The translations under genes were made by a program, and so were the position numbers. DNA of 64,000 nucleotides from Holophagae bacterium (GTDB lineage Bacteria > Acidobacteriota > Holophagae > Acanthopleuribacterales > Acanthopleuribacteraceae), in contig JAJCXM010000008.1 in assembly GCA_029263455.1 (NCBI GenBank), positions 124,001 to 188,000 of the forward strand, given 5' to 3'. The notes below the pieces were generated by a model. That model made no database searches and was not told the DNA's origin. It saw only the letters and a program-made list of their open reading frames with translations. Positions within the stretch are counted from its first letter, which is position 1, and every line of letters starts with the position of its first letter. Shown here piece after piece: positions 37,327 through 53,312 of this stretch.

Positions 37327-39840
37327 TTACTCGTCGCCTAATACGTTCAAGTGCGACTGCAAAACGTATTCACGTAGCGGAGAGGCAGAAAACAGCGTGC
37401 CCTCCATTGTTTGAGAGGCGGCTAAGATCCAGGTCGCGCAAAGATCTTCTCCAGACAAGGCTCGGGCATGTTCCACCAGTAACTCAGCTTCGTCTTCGAA
37501 GCCAAGCTCCTGTTTTGCGACGGCTGCGTCTAATAAGGCGGTGAACGTGTTTGGCGTTTTTGACAAGTTAAGCTCAAAAAAGGCAAGTGCTTGTTCAGGG
37601 CGATGGCACATCATTTCTAACCAGCCCATAACGCGGTTACGGGACGCTTCTTTGAAGAAGATCGGCATCGGATAGGGTGATTCTAGTGTACTTTCGGGAC
37701 AGCTGCCCTGAGATCTCAGTAGTGCCTGTAACTCAACCCAGTAGGGGAATCGAGCTCCTTCGGGCACGCTTTGCGCCAATAAGGTCATGGCAGCCTGCGC
37801 TTTTGGGTTGTCTCGGTTCATTAGTAAACCGACGAGTTTGGTCAGGACCAAGGTGCGATCGTCTGGCGTTAGCCTGAGATCTGTGCGCGCTAGAGCTGCG
37901 TCATAACTTTCCTGTGCCTCATCGGGCCGGTCTAGCTTTATTAAGAGCTCGGCGCGACCGATCAAAACTTCGCCTAGCCAATCTGGGCGACTAATCGCAA
38001 GTTCGATCAAGACTTCTGCTTCTTCAAGCCCATGCTCTGGATCCTGTAAAGCGAGTAAGGCCAGCCTAGCTTCGATTTCGCCGTCTAGGTCCTCGGTATC
38101 GATGGCAATATCGCGTGCATATTCGTACATCATGCGCTGCGCATCCTGATCGCCGAGATCCTCGTTTGCAGCCATCCAAAGTGCTTCTTCCACCCTTTGA
38201 TCTTGAGGCAGTAATTCCAGCTGCTCAAATCGATCTTCGAGCGAAAGGGGTACATATTCTGTGAGTTCACCCGCCGCCCACAGGGCAAGAACGGGCAGGA
38301 CGGGCAAGCTGACGACCATGTAACTTAACAAGGCAACGATAAAGGTGGATAGGCTAGATTTCGCGCTGTTGAGACGTTGAACGGTGGGAGTTATCCACTG
38401 CGCTCGCTGTCCTATTGGAACCTTGCTGTACGTAAACTCCAGTGCACCTACAATGCGTTTCACTTTTTCTCGCAGTGAAAGTCGCGTGCCGCGCAGCTTT
38501 TGGCCTAAAGACTGCTCCATGAACGTCATGACACGAATCATTTTGAGCTGCATCAAATTGATGACGGCTAAAAATACGAAGATGGCGCTGCGTAAAAAGA
38601 AAGCCATCACAACCAATGCCACAATGCCGATCACCGAAAACAGGATCTGAGCTTTTGGGTAACGTTGAAAAACGGCTAAGTTAGCAATATGACCCCCATC
38701 GAGTGGGACGATGGGAACCAAGTTCAAATAGTTCACCAGCAAGAAAATAATGCCCAAGCTGAATAGGTCCCATCCCGTCACTGCACCTGCGATTAGGCAT
38801 GCGTACCCAAGAAATATGCCTGGGATAGGGCCCAATAAATAGACAATAAGTTCTTTGGTGGCGGAAATGTGGTCCGGAGCGTGTCCGATGGTAGCGGCGC
38901 CTAATAAAGGTAGGAATAGGATCCTTGTGTCGCGATAGCCGAATACCAACATGCCTAACAGGTGACCCGCTTCATGGATTAGGACAACCACCGTCAATTG
39001 CCAGGCGAATCGCCAATCAAATGAGAGCCCAAAGGCGAGCGCGAAAAGCAGAATGCTGCCCAGGAAGAGGAAAGCTTTCATCCAGCCTGAGTCTTGTGCC
39101 TTTAAGCTGTTGCGCTCCCAGTCAAGGGTCAGTGCAAAGATACGTGACGGCTTTGGCGCGCCAATGTCCATTTGACCGAGTGCCTTGACCTGTTTTTTTA
39201 AGACGTCTGTGATTCTTTTAGCGCCCTTATTTGTTGCGTGTCCTTGGCCGGCTCGTGTCTCGCGGATCAAGCCACTTTGAACGGCTTTTTGCCAGCGGTC
39301 CTCTTCCATTTTTGTGCAGACCAACAAGCCGTAGTTGGCGTCCTTGATGTCGATGGTGTCTTTCATCAGCATCTGATGGCGTTCCCACTGTTCGATTAAC
39401 GTGTCTGCCTCGGCATCAACGGCAACAACCCAATCAGGCCATACCAGTTCGTAGTCGCTTGACATGTTAGAGGTGGCCAACCATTGGTCACTTCTGTTCT
39501 GCGAGAAAAAAGTGATTTCATAGCCAAACTCAGATTCATAAGTCCTGGAATTACTGACGCGTGCGATTGTCTTTTGACTTCGGTGTAGCAGCAGCGCGCC
39601 AAACAGAGCTTCCCCTTTAAAGCGTGACCAGCGAAAATAGAGCGGCTTGTCGAATCCAAACGCGGCCAGGTCATGGATGGCCTCATCGATCAAGATACGG
39701 AAATCCTCGTCTAGTGCGTCGTAAGTGACTTCGATCGGGACAGGTTTAAGCAGCGTGTAACGTTTCATGTTACGCAGCACGATGAATTTCGAGCCTAAAG
39801 AGATGACTGCAACGAGTACGATGAACTCTATCCAACCCAT
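37327..39840 (-). CDS. M50-family (site-2-protease-like) membrane metalloprotease with TPR-like tail
   Basis: About 837 residues from ATG 39840 (MGWIEFIVLVAVISL, first helix). Residues ~30-255 are a soluble domain. They are followed by several membrane helices carrying the zinc motif HEAGH (VVLIHEAGHLLGML) and the third ligand in NLVPIVPLDGGHIANL, both hallmarks of S2P/M50 proteases. After a further transmembrane helix the last ~300 residues are helical repeats (EALWMAANEDLGD, EAEVLIELAISRP, DEAQESYDAAL) like TPRs. It probably performs intramembrane proteolysis or protein maturation; the TPR tail may recruit substrates. Unlike RseP it has no PDZ domain. Confidence 0.8.
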   Translation of the reverse strand: MGWIEFIVLVAVISLGSKFIVLRNMKRYTLLKPVPIEVTYDALDEDFRILIDEAIHDLAAFGFDKPLYFRWSRFKGEALFGALLLHRSQKTIARVSNSRTYESEFGYEITFFSQNRSDQWLATSNMSSDYELVWPDWVVAVDAEADTLIEQWERHQMLMKDTIDIKDANYGLLVCTKMEEDRWQKAVQSGLIRETRAGQGHATNKGAKRITDVLKKQVKALGQMDIGAPKPSRIFALTLDWERNSLKAQDSGWMKAFLFLGSILLFALAFGLSFDWRFAWQLTVVVLIHEAGHLLGMLVFGYRDTRILFLPLLGAATIGHAPDHISATKELIVYLLGPIPGIFLGYACLIAGAVTGWDLFSLGIIFLLVNYLNLVPIVPLDGGHIANLAVFQRYPKAQILFSVIGIVALVVMAFFLRSAIFVFLAVINLMQLKMIRVMTFMEQSLGQKLRGTRLSLREKVKRIVGALEFTYSKVPIGQRAQWITPTVQRLNSAKSSLSTFIVALLSYMVVSLPVLPVLALWAAGELTEYVPLSLEDRFEQLELLPQDQRVEEALWMAANEDLGDQDAQRMMYEYARDIAIDTEDLDGEIEARLALLALQDPEHGLEEAEVLIELAISRPDWLGEVLIGRAELLIKLDRPDEAQESYDAALARTDLRLTPDDRTLVLTKLVGLLMNRDNPKAQAAMTLLAQSVPEGARFPYWVELQALLRSQGSCPESTLESPYPMPIFFKEASRNRVMGWLEMMCHRPEQALAFFELNLSKTPNTFTALLDAAVAKQELGFEDEAELLVEHARALSGEDLCATWILAASQTMEGTLFSASPLREYVLQSHLNVLGDE

Positions 39841-40354
39841 GCTATGACCCCTCGAGATTGTGATCTTGATTGATTGACGCATTTGGTGTCGCGTATCGGC
39901 CTTGGATTGTGAGCGCCATCCAAGTGCTTGAGCTGGTGGCTGCTTTTTCGAGAAGGCGTTTCATTTTTTGGAGGAATGCTATGAACCGTACTGGCGTTGC
40001 CATAATCCTGAAAACGAATAGATTTTATCCGATGGGCTTTCATGTTTATGTCTCGATTAACTAGGCCGTCATTGATTGGTCGGCACAGTCAGAATACTAC
40101 TTATCGATTCGAAAATGGGTTCGATTGTGTTGGCCTTTTTCTCGAATGCTGTTCGACCGGCTACGAGCAGCTACGTGGTCGAAATCCGGTGCTTAATATT
40201 GGATCGGCCATTTATGCGTTTCCAATACCCTAACCTGTGCTTTAACTTCGCTTCGCGCACAGCAAAGTATTAACCATCAGACTGCGTTCACGCAACGAGA
40301 GGCGTTTTCTTGGGCGGGAAGGGCCCCGCCCCAAGGCTTTAACCTGTGATCTGA
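39841..40354. other. intergenic region without a convincing gene
   Basis: Only short frames without ribosome sites or family resemblance occur here. A GC-rich inverted repeat (CTTGGGCGGG ... CCCGCCCCAAG, 40309-40335) lies just downstream of the AbgT gene and may protect its 3' end, but no T run follows on that strand. Confidence 0.5.
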
Positions 40355-42921: not shown

Positions 42922-45402
42922 ATGCCTAAATCGATTGTTGTTATCGTGTGCCTATCTTTGACGAACCTTATCGCACAAGATACAAAGTCTCCGCTGCGGG
43001 TTCATACGCCTAGCTATTTCATAGACATTGGAAACCCAGCGGGCAACAAAGTCGATCGAGGTTCCTCAAACACCGTTGCCGTGACACGTTTGTCGGGAGC
43101 CTCGTTCGAGTTTCGCCGAGACGGTTTTGACATTCATCCTCCCATTAACAAAACCATGGCAGAGAAAAACTTAAAGGACAAAGTGGTAAGTCTTGGTTTT
43201 GTAGGCCAGCTGCATGGAAAAGACAACCAGGCGGTCAAACTATCTCATCCCGAAGGCAGTATTAATTACTTTATCGGTGAACCGTCACGCTGGAAAACGG
43301 ACCTTCCCGCTTACAAGCAGTTAACTTATGCACAAGTGTGGCGTGACATCGACTTTGAGTTCTTGGGCTTCCTCGATCGCCTGGAATACCGCGTCGTTGT
43401 TGGGCCAGGCGGTGACCCGTCCGATATTTTTGTGGCGACCCACGGCAAAAGTCACCAGGTCGTCAACCGAGCGTTACAGGTCGAGTACGACACGGGTGTC
43501 CTTAGCTTCGGAGCTCCCATCGCTTATCAAACAATCGATGGCACTCGGGTTGCTGTCGACATTGAATACACCTTCTCCAATCTCGGTTTTTCATTCGAAA
43601 TTGCACCTTATTCACCAGATCACGCGCTGGTCATAGACCCGGTTATCGCATGGAGCGGTTTTTTCGGAGGCAGTGACAGCGATACCTCTAAGTCAATCGC
43701 CACGGACGTATCGGGGAATGTGTATTTTGCTGGCAATACAAGTTCAAGCGACTTTAATGTTAATGGCTATGACGTGACTGCAAATGGATTTAGCGATATT
43801 TTTGTAACCAAGCTTGACCCGACTGCGACTAACTTGATCTATTCGACTTACTTGGGAGGCACCTCTTCTGACCAACTTGGCGAGATGGTCCTTGATACTT
43901 CGGGAAACGTCTACCTAGTCGGAACGTCTTCATCGAGCAGCTACCCTGTGACAACGGGCGCTTATGACCTAACCTACAACGGCGGCGACCATGATATCTT
44001 TGTGACGAAGTTAGATGCGAGCGGTAGCAGTCTTGGGTTCTCCACCTATGTTGGAGGATCTCTAAGTGATTGGGGTTTAGGGTTGGCGTTAAATGATCGA
44101 GCCTCTGGTATGTATGTCGTTGGATACTCTGAATCTGTCAATTTTCCCACCACGGCGGGTGCATTTGATCAAACGCACAACGGCGATGATGATGTCGTTG
44201 TTTTTCGGCTATCAAGTAGCGGGGCATCATTAACTTCATCGACCTACATCGGTGGCAGTTTGAACGATCAGGGTCATGCTATTTACGTGGATGCCCCCGA
44301 TATAATTGTCGGCGGTTGGACATCGTCGGCCAATTTCCCTACATCACCTGGTGCCTATGCGACCATGGCTTACGGAAATGTTAGGGACGGTTTTGTCCTC
44401 CGAATGGAAAGTTTGTCGGCATTGGAGGCCTCAACCTATGTGTACAGCGAGGTTACCGACGTCAAAAGGGCGCCAGATCAGACGATTTATGCCGTTGGCG
44501 TGACGGCGGATGGTCAGTTTCCCACAACTGTCGGCGCATACGATCGCAGCCATAACGGCGCCGATGACATGTTCGTGGTTGGCTTCGGTTATGACTGTGA
44601 CACGTTCCTCTACGGGACCTTTGTGGGTGGCACTGGAGTCGAGCATTCGGATGTCAAACTAGCACTCGATGAGGACGGCGATGTGTATATTGGTGGAGGG
44701 ACGTTTTCAACCGATTTTCCCGTCACCGCCAACGCGATAGACCCCACTGCCAATGGACTCGGTGATGGTGTCGTCGTGAAGCTGGCTGCGGATGGCAGTA
44801 GTCTCGATTTTTCGTCCTATATTGGAGGGACAGCTGCTGAACGACTCTATAGCATAGCGCTCAATGATTGCGGTGACGTTTATGTGACTGGCAGAACCAG
44901 GTCGGCTGACTTTCCGGCGACGTTTGGAAGTTACAACGCAGACTGGGATCCATTTGTGGCTTTGATCGAATTAACCTACAAAGCCAATCTGGCGCCTAAG
45001 ATCCAAGCAAGAGGCTTGAACGACCCCGTCTTCACGCTTGAAACCACTGGAGCGGCAGGTCCTCTGACCATCAACTGGAGCGCCATGCCAGCGACGCCAT
45101 TGACGGTTGGCGCGCAGCAGGTGACGATGACGCCACCGCCATCAGTGACGACTGCGCTTGAAGCTTCGGTCCTAGATACCGATAGCGGCGACACATTGGT
45201 CCCTAACGCCTTATTGCTGGTGTCCCAAAACCCACTCTTCTTTGACTACAACGTCGATGGTTGCAACAACCTCATCGATTTATGGATGCTGTTTGACGAC
45301 TGGCACTTGCCATTCCCCAACGATCCGGATGGCTCTGGCGTCATTGACATCAAAGATTTTCTCTACATCAATCTCGATGATTCGCTTCTTTTTTGTCCCT
45401 GA
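42922..45402 (+). CDS. secreted SBBP-repeat protein with dockerin-like C-terminus
   Basis: An 826-residue exported protein. A signal peptide (MPKSIVVIVCLSLTNLIA) precedes a ~230-residue N-terminal domain typical of SBBP proteins (FIGEPSRWKTDLP, YAQVWRDIDFEFLG). Seven or so beta-propeller repeats follow, with the SBBP signature (DVSGNVYFAGNT, FVTKLDPT, YSTYLGGT). Then comes an immunoglobulin-like stretch, and at the C-terminus a pair of Asp/Asn-rich loops (DYNVDGCNNLIDL and DPDGSGVIDIKDF) resembling dockerin or EF-hand calcium sites. It is probably surface or secreted; ligand unknown. Its convergent neighbour ends 90 bases away. Confidence 0.78.
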   Translation: MPKSIVVIVCLSLTNLIAQDTKSPLRVHTPSYFIDIGNPAGNKVDRGSSNTVAVTRLSGASFEFRRDGFDIHPPINKTMAEKNLKDKVVSLGFVGQLHGKDNQAVKLSHPEGSINYFIGEPSRWKTDLPAYKQLTYAQVWRDIDFEFLGFLDRLEYRVVVGPGGDPSDIFVATHGKSHQVVNRALQVEYDTGVLSFGAPIAYQTIDGTRVAVDIEYTFSNLGFSFEIAPYSPDHALVIDPVIAWSGFFGGSDSDTSKSIATDVSGNVYFAGNTSSSDFNVNGYDVTANGFSDIFVTKLDPTATNLIYSTYLGGTSSDQLGEMVLDTSGNVYLVGTSSSSSYPVTTGAYDLTYNGGDHDIFVTKLDASGSSLGFSTYVGGSLSDWGLGLALNDRASGMYVVGYSESVNFPTTAGAFDQTHNGDDDVVVFRLSSSGASLTSSTYIGGSLNDQGHAIYVDAPDIIVGGWTSSANFPTSPGAYATMAYGNVRDGFVLRMESLSALEASTYVYSEVTDVKRAPDQTIYAVGVTADGQFPTTVGAYDRSHNGADDMFVVGFGYDCDTFLYGTFVGGTGVEHSDVKLALDEDGDVYIGGGTFSTDFPVTANAIDPTANGLGDGVVVKLAADGSSLDFSSYIGGTAAERLYSIALNDCGDVYVTGRTRSADFPATFGSYNADWDPFVALIELTYKANLAPKIQARGLNDPVFTLETTGAAGPLTINWSAMPATPLTVGAQQVTMTPPPSVTTALEASVLDTDSGDTLVPNALLLVSQNPLFFDYNVDGCNNLIDLWMLFDDWHLPFPNDPDGSGVIDIKDFLYINLDDSLLFCP

Positions 45403-45491: not shown

Positions 45492-47915
45492 TTATTTCGA
45501 AGCAGGCTCCGAATTCACGTCCGTCGCGCTGGTTTCCGTTAACGGTAGCAAGGTTTGAAGCACGAGATCCAGTTGACTCCTCCACGCCAACCAACCTGGA
45601 CTTGCATGGATCTCACGTTCCATGACCTTGTGTCCGGCCCGCTTAAGTTCGTTGACCAAGTTCTGATGATCACGTGGGTAGTCGTTATCTTGGTCAGGCG
45701 CATCTCGATGGTACGTGCAACGGTCGATCGATAACGCGAGTGGTTTTTTGTTCTCTTTGATCGCCGCCGAGATTAACTTGCGTAGATGGACCTGAAGTTC
45801 AATCGACTGAACCGCCACCGTCCCGATGCTGCCACGGCTGCGTAACGCGGCTAGAAGACTTACGTGCGCGCCCGCGCCCGAACCCATCACACTGCGTAAA
45901 TCGGACCCTTCGCTTAGCCGGTATCGTCGCTCCAGTTCCGGGATGAGCTCGTCAAGTAACATGTCAACATATTGACCCGTTTTTTGACCGCCACTTTCGT
46001 CATAGATTCCGAATCGACCTTCTGTGAAAGGCACAAAGGCAACCACAGCGGGGCGAATACTTTGCTGCATGAGTTTGTCTAACGTCTCTTGCATCTCGAA
46101 ATGTTTGAACGTCGAGGTGCCATGGTTGACGACCAAGAGCGGAAACGCCGACTGCGCTTCCTCGTAGCCATGCGGTAAATAGACGGTCACCGATCGGGCA
46201 GTCTCGCTTCGGTCCTTAACGTCAAAAGACTCAATTTTGCCGGCATGCTCAGGCTGTGCTTGAGCAAAAAATGCAGGTGTCCTCCATCCGCGCATCTTGA
46301 CCTCTGAGCCAGGCCCACTGCTATCAGTGTTACGTGGATCCTTGATCGGTGATTGGTAGTCGACCATGAATCCATAATCCCAACGTGCATCGGCCTCGAT
46401 CGGGTAACCCCGATAGAAAAAACTGCTTCCTGAAACTCGATACATGGTCTCACCTTCAGGGGCCATTGTGCCCATCACGGCCACATCGTCGCCCTCGCCA
46501 ACGTACACGAAGTGGACATACCCTTCATCCTCAATTACGGGCATGCTGGGATGCTCGTCCAAGAATCTCGTGATCAGGTCGGCTTTGTTCTTGGATTGCT
46601 GAAGGCGTACGATAAATGAACGGAACGCTGTGCTTTTCCCGAGATTCGGCATTTCGGAAGTTGAGGCGGACGTTTGTTTTTCAGCCACCACATCAACCGC
46701 TGCAATTTCCCACAGGTTGCGCAGGAAGAAACCACGTGGACCCACCGAAGGCAAGTTGAAGCTCCCTACGTCAAAGACTTGGATTTGGCGCTCATTTTCG
46801 TAGCCAGAAGCGGTGACGTGTCCAACCCGAAGCGAACCGTCCCGACACCAGGTCACCAGCCGCCCATTAACCATAATGGCTTGACCCTTTCCTGGCTTGC
46901 GCGACGTCCAAAGTTTATTGCCAGATTTAGGATCCACGCCAATCAGAAATTGGTTACTGTTGCCGATGATCACGTCGCCGTGCAGGATGGGGACTTGGTA
47001 GGTTTGTTTTAGATCTTTTTGAGCCCAAGCTTCAGAAATCTGCCAGCCGCCCTCGTCATGATTGAGTTCGTAGGTGGCGTAGTTTCCAAAAAAACCGCCA
47101 CGGCATATGAGGAATTGCTTGGCATTCAACTGGGTCAATGCCCCTGTGGCACTGAACCCCTTTTCGTTAACCAGTTGTTTCCATAAGGTCTGTCCGCTTT
47201 TTGGATCGATGCCCATCACATGGCTGGTAGACGAAGCGACGATCATGGGCTGGCCCGCGAAACTCATCAAACGCGGCGATTGATAAAAGACAGCGCCATC
47301 GCCGGCGCACCAAACCTGTCGGCCAGTGTTGGCATCAAAGGCACAAACCATCGATTCGCCCTCACCGCCAACGCCGAGGATGATCTTGTCGTCCAGCGCC
47401 ATTGGCGAGCTGGTAAAACCCCAAGGCGGAGGTTCGATGTTATAGGTCGCGCGCAAGTCTATGCGCCACAGTTCGCGGCCGCTTTTCTTGTCGAGAGCAA
47501 AGAACTGACCCCTGGGACCCAGTGCAAAGAGGCGATCGCCATAACTTAAAGGCGTTGAGAGTGGGCCATCGGCGGAACCTCCGTGACCGACATAGGTATC
47601 ACCAATTCGGTAGCGCCAAATCGATTTCCCAGTCTCTTGCGCCATAGCAACCACATAGTCGTCCTTGCCATCGGAATACATCGTGAACAATTCATCACCG
47701 GCAACGACGATATCCGAATATCCTGAACCCAGCTTCTTGCGCCAGCGGACTTCCAATCCGTAGTCGGACTTTTCGAAAAAGTGGGTGCCCAGCGTCGTGC
47801 CATCCCTGTTCGGCCCCAAATAGCCTGACCACGAGCTGGCTTGAATGGTTTCTTGGCCAAGAACAGCGGCACCGATAAGTAGCAATGAAATGAGGGCCAA
47901 ATTAGGTGTTTTCAT
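45492..47915 (-). CDS. PQQ-like beta-propeller fused to a degenerate enterochelin-esterase-like domain
   Basis: About 807 residues from ATG 47915, preceded by GCGGAG and opening a signal peptide (MKTPNLALISLLLIGAAVLG). Residues ~30-410 are PQQ-type propeller blades (GPLSTPLSYGDRLFALG, GIDPKSGQTLW, GVDPKSGNKLW). Residues ~440-560 look like the early-set domain that precedes Fes/IroE-type esterases. Residues ~565-790 have the alpha/beta esterase fold (VTVYLPHGYEEAQSAFPLLVVNHG, then LDELIPELERRYRL). The nucleophile elbow reads GSGAG (678-682), with Gly where Ser is expected, and the usual GGHxW is replaced by SPGW, so the esterase is probably inactive. Likely a secreted or periplasmic binding protein. 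Confidence 0.72.
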   Translation of the reverse strand: MKTPNLALISLLLIGAAVLGQETIQASSWSGYLGPNRDGTTLGTHFFEKSDYGLEVRWRKKLGSGYSDIVVAGDELFTMYSDGKDDYVVAMAQETGKSIWRYRIGDTYVGHGGSADGPLSTPLSYGDRLFALGPRGQFFALDKKSGRELWRIDLRATYNIEPPPWGFTSSPMALDDKIILGVGGEGESMVCAFDANTGRQVWCAGDGAVFYQSPRLMSFAGQPMIVASSTSHVMGIDPKSGQTLWKQLVNEKGFSATGALTQLNAKQFLICRGGFFGNYATYELNHDEGGWQISEAWAQKDLKQTYQVPILHGDVIIGNSNQFLIGVDPKSGNKLWTSRKPGKGQAIMVNGRLVTWCRDGSLRVGHVTASGYENERQIQVFDVGSFNLPSVGPRGFFLRNLWEIAAVDVVAEKQTSASTSEMPNLGKSTAFRSFIVRLQQSKNKADLITRFLDEHPSMPVIEDEGYVHFVYVGEGDDVAVMGTMAPEGETMYRVSGSSFFYRGYPIEADARWDYGFMVDYQSPIKDPRNTDSSGPGSEVKMRGWRTPAFFAQAQPEHAGKIESFDVKDRSETARSVTVYLPHGYEEAQSAFPLLVVNHGTSTFKHFEMQETLDKLMQQSIRPAVVAFVPFTEGRFGIYDESGGQKTGQYVDMLLDELIPELERRYRLSEGSDLRSVMGSGAGAHVSLLAALRSRGSIGTVAVQSIELQVHLRKLISAAIKENKKPLALSIDRCTYHRDAPDQDNDYPRDHQNLVNELKRAGHKVMEREIHASPGWLAWRSQLDLVLQTLLPLTETSATDVNSEPASK

Positions 47916-51125: not shown

Positions 51126-53312
51126 TTATTGTTGTGCAATAAAGGTGTCTTCCAGCGATTTGATCCCACGATTTCGTTTGATCTCTTTGATAGCAAGATT
51201 TAGATGATGATGAAGTTGATGTTCTTTTGTAGCCACAGCAATTGCATAATTCTCCGATTTTGGGCCCTGAAAATTTAGGGGGTAGTCATCTTCTCTAATC
51301 TGAAGCACTCGATAAATGTTTCCCTGGTCGCGGTTGCGTTTTCTCAGATAGGGGCTGTCTGCTAGTATCACCTTAATCGTGCCGCTGTTTAGGTCGACGA
51401 ACATTTTGTCAAGCACACCCTTGCCAGAATACGCTTCGACATTACCTGGCACCAAGAACTGCGCGACGTCAAAATTTGTTGTATTTTCTTGGGCACCGAC
51501 TCTTAGATTGCTGTGCGTCAATTCTGCGATAGAGTTCAGTTCGGTGCTGGGGAGGAATAGAACTGCCTGTGTGGTGGATAAGTAGGGTTCTGTGAATTTT
51601 ATTCCATAAAGACGTTCGCGTTCTCTTGTGCTTGAAATACCGGAGATAATGAAATCGACGCACTGACCCTCGTCGCTTGCCGTCAAGCTCAGTAGGTCGC
51701 TCCACTGACGTTTTTCAATGATGGGCTCGCTATTAATGGTCACCCCAAAACTCTCACTCCAGTAGTGGCAAATTCCCCTAACTAATTCGACATCAAGCCC
51801 TGTCCATCGATCCGTTGCATCATCGAAAAAAGCAAAAATCCCTTCCGATTGCGTCCCAGATATTCCAATCCGCACGACCCTCTCGCGTTTTATGCGCTCG
51901 AGACGATCTCGGTAGAGTTTGAAATTAGACCAATTACTCCAACGCGTTTTTCGATTCTTGGGGCTAATACCGCGCACCCTCCAGTTGATTTTGCATTCGT
52001 CGTCGCGCAGTTCAATGAGTTGCTTAAGGTCATCGCCAGAATACCGGAGAAAATCGTGTCCGGCTGATTTAATCAAAGATTTATCGCCACTCTCAAATTG
52101 AATTTCATAGTGATCAGATGATTCAATTTGGGTTTTCCACTTGAGAACAACGTTGCTGGAAATGATCGTTTCTTTGTTTTTGGGCGTTGTCAATTCGGGC
52201 GGCGGAGCGCCGCGAAAAAACAAGAAATAAAGTAAACCAACTGTGCATGCAGCAATAGCTGTTGATATATGAGCGATTCGGAATGGACGGAAACGGTCAG
52301 TTCGTCTGCGGTTGTGATTAAATTCCTTTTCGGACTGATCGCTGTTTTTGGTTGGTGTATTTAGCTCGCGGTAGCGTTTGTCCCGACGGGCCAGCTCGTT
52401 TGAGGCCTTCTGGCTCATTTCAACGCTATCTGATTCACGGAGTTCGATAAGCTTTAGAAAAGCCGCTTTTTCCTTAGCCGCACTTGTACTTTCTAGGTGG
52501 CTGACAAGGCTTTCAAATGCAGCTGATCGGAGTTCAGAAATACTAGATACCAATCCTGTTAGAAGCGCTGGATCAAGTTTAGCTGGTCGGACATTAGGGT
52601 TTTTAGAAACAATTAGTTCCGTCTCTGAATTCAAACCACTGTATTGCGGGTTCTGTTCTCTAAGCTCGCTTTGTAAGTAAGCCGCAAGCTCATGGATTGT
52701 GACATGTCCATCGTTATCTCGATCCGCAAGTCCTAGCTTAATCCCGGAAACGAGTTTGTGCGTGAATATACCCATTACTTCGCCGTCGTCAACTTTGTGT
52801 TCTCTTGACGTTGAAGTCTCGGTTGTCGAAGTGAGAAGGTGGAAACCACCAGAATGGGCAGCTAATTCATCTCCGAATGTTCCTCGTAGGCCCAGTCCAG
52901 ACATTCCAGCTGCGCCACTGTAGCAACAGTCCAAAATCACGACGTGATTATCACACCGTGAGTTGCGGATCATGGTGTGTATGGAACGATAGTCAAGCGC
53001 CGTGCCTGCTAGTAACCCTGGGTCCGTCTCAATAGTGGCAAGAAACAAATGACCATCTATGTCCAATTTGCCGTGGCCAGAATAGTAAACAAGAGATACG
53101 TCGCCCGGAACTAGATCTCTGAAATGACGAGCCAGTTTGTGACGGACCTCAGAAGCGTCTTCGTCAATTAATTCAACTATTTTTGTAAAATGCCCATATT
53201 TTTTGTCTCGTAATAAATTCCCAAATTGACGAACATCATTCTTGGTACCCTTAAGCAACGGGAGAGACGAACCAAAAATCCCGTTTCCAATAAGAAGTGC
53301 ATGGCGTTTCAT
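51126..53312 (-). CDS. transmembrane caspase-family protease with EF-hand loop and C-terminal amino-acid-binding (SBP_bac_3) domain
   Basis: A 728-residue protein. Residues 1-235 form a caspase (peptidase C14) domain with catalytic His80 in YYSGHG and Cys130 in LDCCYSG. Residues 197-208 (DRDNDGHVTIHE) are a canonical EF-hand calcium loop inside the C-terminal part of the protease. A helical linker (250-340) and a basic stretch lead to one transmembrane helix (~348-366). An extracytoplasmic beta-sandwich follows (~370-465), then a type 3 solute-binding domain of the amino-acid/PBPe kind (~478-725: VVRIGISG, FFDDATDRWTGLDVELV, GISSTRERER, FTEPYLSTTQAVLF). No signal peptide is present, so the caspase is cytoplasmic and the sensor periplasmic. 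It overlaps the EACC1 gene by four bases. Probably a ligand-triggered conflict or cell-death effector; the target is unknown. Confidence 0.85.
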   Translation of the reverse strand: MKRHALLIGNGIFGSSLPLLKGTKNDVRQFGNLLRDKKYGHFTKIVELIDEDASEVRHKLARHFRDLVPGDVSLVYYSGHGKLDIDGHLFLATIETDPGLLAGTALDYRSIHTMIRNSRCDNHVVILDCCYSGAAGMSGLGLRGTFGDELAAHSGGFHLLTSTTETSTSREHKVDDGEVMGIFTHKLVSGIKLGLADRDNDGHVTIHELAAYLQSELREQNPQYSGLNSETELIVSKNPNVRPAKLDPALLTGLVSSISELRSAAFESLVSHLESTSAAKEKAAFLKLIELRESDSVEMSQKASNELARRDKRYRELNTPTKNSDQSEKEFNHNRRRTDRFRPFRIAHISTAIAACTVGLLYFLFFRGAPPPELTTPKNKETIISSNVVLKWKTQIESSDHYEIQFESGDKSLIKSAGHDFLRYSGDDLKQLIELRDDECKINWRVRGISPKNRKTRWSNWSNFKLYRDRLERIKRERVVRIGISGTQSEGIFAFFDDATDRWTGLDVELVRGICHYWSESFGVTINSEPIIEKRQWSDLLSLTASDEGQCVDFIISGISSTRERERLYGIKFTEPYLSTTQAVLFLPSTELNSIAELTHSNLRVGAQENTTNFDVAQFLVPGNVEAYSGKGVLDKMFVDLNSGTIKVILADSPYLRKRNRDQGNIYRVLQIREDDYPLNFQGPKSENYAIAVATKEHQLHHHLNLAIKEIKRNRGIKSLEDTFIAQQ

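Follow-up and report, generated by a model that had tools for sequence, protein, structure and literature searches.

Fes, the enterochelin esterase (PDB 3mga, 3c87 and 2b20), combines an Ig-like N-terminal domain with an α/β hydrolase, and a two-domain layout is also found in feruloyl and acetyl-xylan esterases of the CBM48-CE1 kind (PDB 8bbp, 6rzn, 7b5v and 6ne9). For the latter, the accessible part of one paper locates a Ser-His-Asp/Glu triad within the interdomain (CE1/CBM48) groove and describes a dimer for the solved enzyme DmCE1B_ct, with an interface common to its relatives (PMC8040265). Pseudoenzymes of the α/β hydrolase fold are already known. Neuroligin, neurotactin and the C-terminal domain of thyroglobulin display this fold without a working triad and, according to the accessible part of another source, non-catalytic domains of this type in animals, such as those of neuroligin and thyroglobulin, serve adhesion or chaperoning (PMC5943944).

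The 807-residue protein described here, encoded in the window (the whole 64,000-nucleotide stretch of Holophagae DNA that was analysed), resembles Fes in having an Ig-like domain followed by an α/β hydrolase in the same orientation, but differs from it in that the Ser, acid and His of the triad are all altered and a propeller is added. It likewise shares the two-domain layout of the CBM48-CE1 esterases but, in contrast to these enzymes with their own triad, it has none and begins with a propeller. The propeller has the fold of BamB (3prw) and YxaL (7eq5), with Z scores of 32-35, but is fused to a pseudo-esterase. As for the cholinesterase-like proteins, which are animal proteins from another branch of hydrolases and have no propeller, the likeness is one of principle, not of descent. 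No description of a propeller-fused, Fes-like pseudo-esterase family was found in the open-licence papers searched, and the words PQQ and propeller are absent from the main text of a paper on Acanthopleuribacteraceae, as far as its accessible part goes (PMC8841776).

Architecture of the 807-residue protein

The reading frame (Table 1) is open, with a GGAG motif upstream of the ATG at 47915 and a hydrophobic, signal-like stretch downstream of it, and we infer from the sequence that the protein is probably exported.

Table 1. Features of the fused gene, in window coordinates; residues are those of the 807-residue protein
Feature	Position	Strand	Basis or remark
Putatively exported propeller + Ig + pseudo-esterase protein, CDS	45492..47915	-	807 aa, ATG at 47915, stop counted in
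Signal-peptide-like N terminus, residues 1-21	47853..47915	-	Read from sequence by eye
β-Propeller, BamB/YxaL-like, approximately residues 22-412	46680..47852	-	Pfam PF13360 (PQQ_2) E 4e-26 and fold match
N-terminal Ig-like domain, Fes/CBM48-CE1 kind, approximately residues 443-559	46239..46589	-	Fes matches cover Ig + esterase
Pseudo-esterase domain, Fes-like α/β hydrolase fold, residues 560-807	45495..46238	-	Pfam PF00756 (Esterase) E 2.9e-16; VIA Z 31.7 to Fes 3mga_A (Ig + esterase unit)
Dead nucleophile elbow GSGAG, residues 678-682, Gly680 at Ser position	45870..45884	-	Motif, alignment column, domain model
Acid position, His736	45708..45710	-	Alignment column; Asp/Glu in 85/98 assessable fused homologues
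Catalytic His position, Pro773	45597..45599	-	Motif, alignment column, domain model

The full-length AlphaFold model, computed with an 87-row alignment, has a mean pLDDT of 92.4 and a pTM of 0.90, values that give confidence in the predicted placement of the domains relative to each other. In this model, the propeller matches YxaL (7eq5_B) with a VIA Z of 34.8 and BamB with a Z of about 32, and residues 425-774 match Fes with a Z of 31.4. When modelled alone, the Ig + esterase half has a pLDDT of 89.9 and superposes on Fes 3mga_A over 335 aligned residues (rmsd 3.1), which indicates that the Fes fold is retained, as the first-pass annotation had supposed; its VIA Z to the CBM48-CE1 esterases is 24-26. 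The best sequence profile match of the protein is 8bbp (E 8.6e-31), and Foldseek matches it to 6ne9 (E 5.3e-21).

The N-terminal part had initially been labelled a PQQ-type propeller. It is indeed a propeller by its Pfam PQQ_2 match, but one that is nearer to BamB and YxaL than to a PQQ enzyme. The protein scores 51.2 bits with the PQQ-dependent dehydrogenase model TIGR03075 (cut-off 480), 64.3 bits with the BamB model TIGR03300 (cut-off 285.2) and 25.8 bits with the Fes model NCBIfam NF007758 (cut-off 222). Generic esterase and PQQ/BamB models match the fused proteins, and names taken from them would mislead.

Motif positions and alignment columns place the three catalytic residues at Gly680 (Ser), His736 (acid) and Pro773 (His). 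The elbow with Gly in place of the nucleophile, pointed out in the first-pass annotation, is confirmed, and so is the replacement of the usual GGHxW, the position reading ASPGW with Pro773 where the His is expected; the third loss, that of the acid, had been overlooked. When solved feruloyl esterases are aligned by profile (8bbp and 6rzn), the elbow lines up with their GLSMGG and the SPGW motif with their GGHTWANWR. In the domain model, Gly680 is located between strand 232-237 and helix 239-250, that is, at the nucleophile elbow, and His736 and Pro773 come after the strands that normally precede the acid and the His.

A nucleophile at Ser679, which would require a shift by one residue, is ruled out because position 679 varies among relatives. 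An alternative triad is ruled out at the level of the family: there is no conserved alternative His in the esterase domain, and the sole His present in at least 80% of the fused family (87-row alignment) is H468, in the Ig domain. A sequencing error or frameshift is also ruled out, because a loss of this kind is shared by five paralogues in the same genome; moreover, none of 102 propeller homologues has both Ser and His.

Propeller-fused and unfused relatives

The host genome (6.25 Mb) encodes six full-length fused proteins, all without the Ser and without the His, the five paralogues being 27-43% identical to the 807-residue query. It also encodes propeller-only relatives and a protein consisting of Ig and esterase domains without a propeller (L011), in which the corresponding GASFG and DGHNW motifs are intact. 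When genome contigs were scanned with the single protein as query, no relative was detected. A later scan of the contigs identified 27 loci with fused relatives, including one duplicate locus. It yielded 27 distinct fused proteins, of which 25 are assessable, and neither Ser (0/25) nor His (0/25) is retained in these. The titles of the records, which in the case of MAGs can misname contigs, assign the fused loci to Acidobacteria/Acidobacteriota (including Thermoanaerobaculia), Planctomycetota (Phycisphaerae and Pirellulaceae), candidate division KSB1, Calditrichia/Caldithrix (Calditrichota) and Poribacteria.

A search of the phylum, in which the best five candidates per genome were scored, gave a match at E 1e-25 in 120 of 396 genomes, fused and unfused proteins mixed. 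The loci examined were those with matches down to about E 1e-44, plus 20 picked for long frames or missing copies. Proteins were called fused or unfused with two profiles, one for the propeller and one for the Ig + esterase unit, which were derived from the initial 22 fused proteins and are hence biased toward fused-like matches. This set apparently overlaps in part with that of the contig scan. After merging matching genes and entering identical copies once, the final pool consists of 163 distinct proteins, 102 fused and 61 unfused.

The two groups differ sharply at the catalytic positions. Ser is retained in 6/99 fused versus 58/60 unfused proteins (Fisher p 9e-34, relatedness ignored), His in 2/98 versus 54/58, and both together in 0/102 versus 54/61; rows with a gap were excluded from the single-residue fractions (three fused and one unfused for Ser, four fused and three unfused for His). 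The search for homologues with the same substitutions, which had been suggested at the outset, thus reveals that the loss of Ser and His is near-general among propeller-fused relatives. Ser is missing from two unfused rows, L060, where the sequence starts at the edge of a contig, and the short fragment L210; in each of them, tblastn detected nothing of a fused relative but its C-terminal part. Four unfused rows are without His, namely these two and, by reading, L181 and L211, which are poorly aligned there. Besides the fragments L060 and L210, no dead unfused protein is present in the 163-protein pool.

What replaces the nucleophile in the fused group is highly variable, with 15 residue types at the Ser position. 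Asp occupies it in 12/99 fused proteins, and a subgroup (L003, L014, L128, L129, L134, L198, L202 and L207) has an elbow in which Asp-Glu replaces the Ser (GxDE).

In the 11 fully searched genomes, there are two to seven fused copies each, as counted from frame length and sequence. Ten of these 11 genomes have at least two fused copies alongside at least one unfused copy, some judged by frame length, while for one genome (G093) a threshold of E 1e-25 recovers four fused copies but nothing unfused. Sulfidibacter corallicola, which is in culture, has three fused copies.

Conservation, selection and descent

When 69 fused and 40 unfused proteins are compared position by position (L060 excluded), the unfused group hardly varies at Ser680, His773, Asp598 and Tyr602, positions that are free in the fused one. 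Residue 598 is Asp in 40/40 unfused proteins and in 12 of the fused ones; it is His in the 807-residue protein. Scaffold positions, P459, Y514, D526, P581 and W778, are conserved at 99-100% in fused and 84-100% in unfused proteins; among rows that have a residue there, the first four are invariant in both groups, and 67/68 fused rows have W778. The fused group also has features of its own. W732, within a DWGxYD motif, is found in 86/98 fused versus 6/59 unfused proteins, although the 807-residue protein has Arg there, and the loop from the acid to the next helix is longer in fused proteins (median 19 versus 11 residues), some unfused rows having a long loop as well. This motif and the longer loop suggest remodelling. 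The acid position, lost in the window copy, remains Asp or Glu in 85/98 fused proteins, which leaves room for residual or new chemistry.

Conservation within the fused proteins is highest in the propeller, with 63/397 columns at 80% or more, compared with 14/128 in the Ig domain and 24/223 in the esterase domain; R339 and R399 of the propeller are invariant across the 87 rows. For the 12 closest pairs among the 87 proteins, which are fairly distant, include one with saturated dS and leave the window gene outside, dN/dS is 0.10-0.38 in the esterase part and 0.08-0.38 in the propeller part. Judged by these ratios, the dead esterase domain is under purifying selection. The original proposal, in which the catalytic residues are gone, the fold is kept and the domain is joined to a propeller, is supported by structure prediction, homologues and selection alike. 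The family displays the hallmarks of a pseudoenzyme, namely a retained hydrolase fold and a lost triad, in a state common to relatives.

A single branch separates fused from unfused proteins, 68 versus 38, with an SH-aLRT of 97 in a tree of 106 rows (L060, L093, L124 and L125 excluded), and the same split, 99 versus 54, has an SH-aLRT of 99 in a larger tree of 153 rows (L060, L210 and other domains under 250 residues excluded). Both trees were computed with the catalytic columns removed, by quick searches without bootstrap, and are unrooted; they therefore do not order the catalytic loss before, with or after the fusion. That the fused family is catalytically dead, under selection and of single origin is, in our view, very probable.

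Possible roles and genomic setting

The explanation that we consider likely is that the fused proteins are an exported pseudo-esterase family of single origin, in which the esterase was turned from an enzyme into a binding or docking module, after which copies multiplied. There would have been a single loss of catalysis, coinciding or nearly coinciding with the fusion to the propeller, and the esterase fold, thereby freed, would have become a non-catalytic binding or docking surface rigidly held against the propeller. Duplication would then have produced the two to seven diverged copies per genome, each perhaps for different ligands or partners. Since the active site of CBM48-CE1 esterases lies in an interdomain groove (PMC8040265, accessible part), a remodelled groove could bind a ligand, and we tentatively suggest, by analogy, that the esterase domain may be a binding or recognition module. 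By analogy with neuroligin-type, cholinesterase-like adhesion domains, recognition might take place at the cell surface or in the periplasm. A bolder version, in which one ancient fusion of a propeller with a killed Fes-like esterase gave rise to an exported recognition family across several phyla, often in many copies, with a diversified pocket and surface and with tandem arrays as a source of specificities, would make these proteins a bacterial counterpart of neuroligins; by analogy it is conceivable, if doubtful. On the preferred reading, too, one fusion coincides with catalytic loss and is followed by expansion across several phyla, which makes the family a clean natural experiment on the reuse of an enzyme fold, with the intact relatives that most of these genomes also encode serving as controls.

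The propeller might instead be the working part, in binding or even catalysis, with the pseudo-esterase only orienting or stabilising it. While its superior conservation, its two invariant Arg residues and the propeller-only relatives in the same genome point that way, the PQQ dehydrogenase and BamB model scores are far under their cut-offs, comparable purifying selection acts on the esterase part, and this part has its own clade-specific motif, all of which makes the idea rather unlikely. We find it improbable that the fused protein regulates or partners an active esterase, for example by co-assembling with the intact relative without a propeller that its genome also encodes. The co-occurrence of fused and unfused copies in 10 of 11 genomes and the dimeric nature of DmCE1B_ct, with its common interface (PMC8040265, accessible part), are consistent with such an assembly, but G093 has fused copies only at the threshold used, fused and intact genes are non-adjacent in the loci examined (L129 excepted), and inspection by eye shows no obvious signal sequence in L011, so that this protein and the fused ones may occupy different compartments.

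It is highly improbable that another chemistry survives in the remodelled site, such as an Asp nucleophile in the GxDE subgroup. The Asp found at the Ser position in some fused proteins and the Asp or Glu kept at the acid position in most would fit, but 96/98 fused proteins are without the His, the esterase domain has no other conserved His, the Ser position varies in residue type and the window copy has lost the acid as well. Finally, the gene could be a decaying relic, as its missing catalytic signature might suggest, but this is scarcely credible given its open frame, the high-confidence predicted fold and a dead state common to several phyla; decay is ruled out by the dN/dS of related pairs, which is well under 1.

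As for the surroundings of the fused genes, beyond closely related contigs no neighbouring gene recurs, and gene context therefore points to no function. Fused copies occur in tandem, as a run of three in G387 and as a pair in G414. In a KSB1 MAG, the genome of L132, four fused genes (L202, L207, L212 and L216) lie in tandem with a spacing of about 2.5 kb (G442 C61:100471-108964), and at L134:3205-12330 two successive fused genes are flanked on each side by propeller-only genes. Elsewhere in the window, a gene at 42922-45402 (plus strand) encodes a protein with DUF7948 and SBBP propeller repeats, whose C terminus resembles, by eye, a dockerin-type pair of calcium loops. On the minus strand, 51126-53312 encodes a 728-residue protein with a caspase-like Peptidase_C14 domain (E 1.5e-14) and a family 3 solute-binding domain (E 4.4e-10), and 37327-39882 an 851-residue protein that matches peptidase M50 (3.3e-9) and contains TPR-like repeats.
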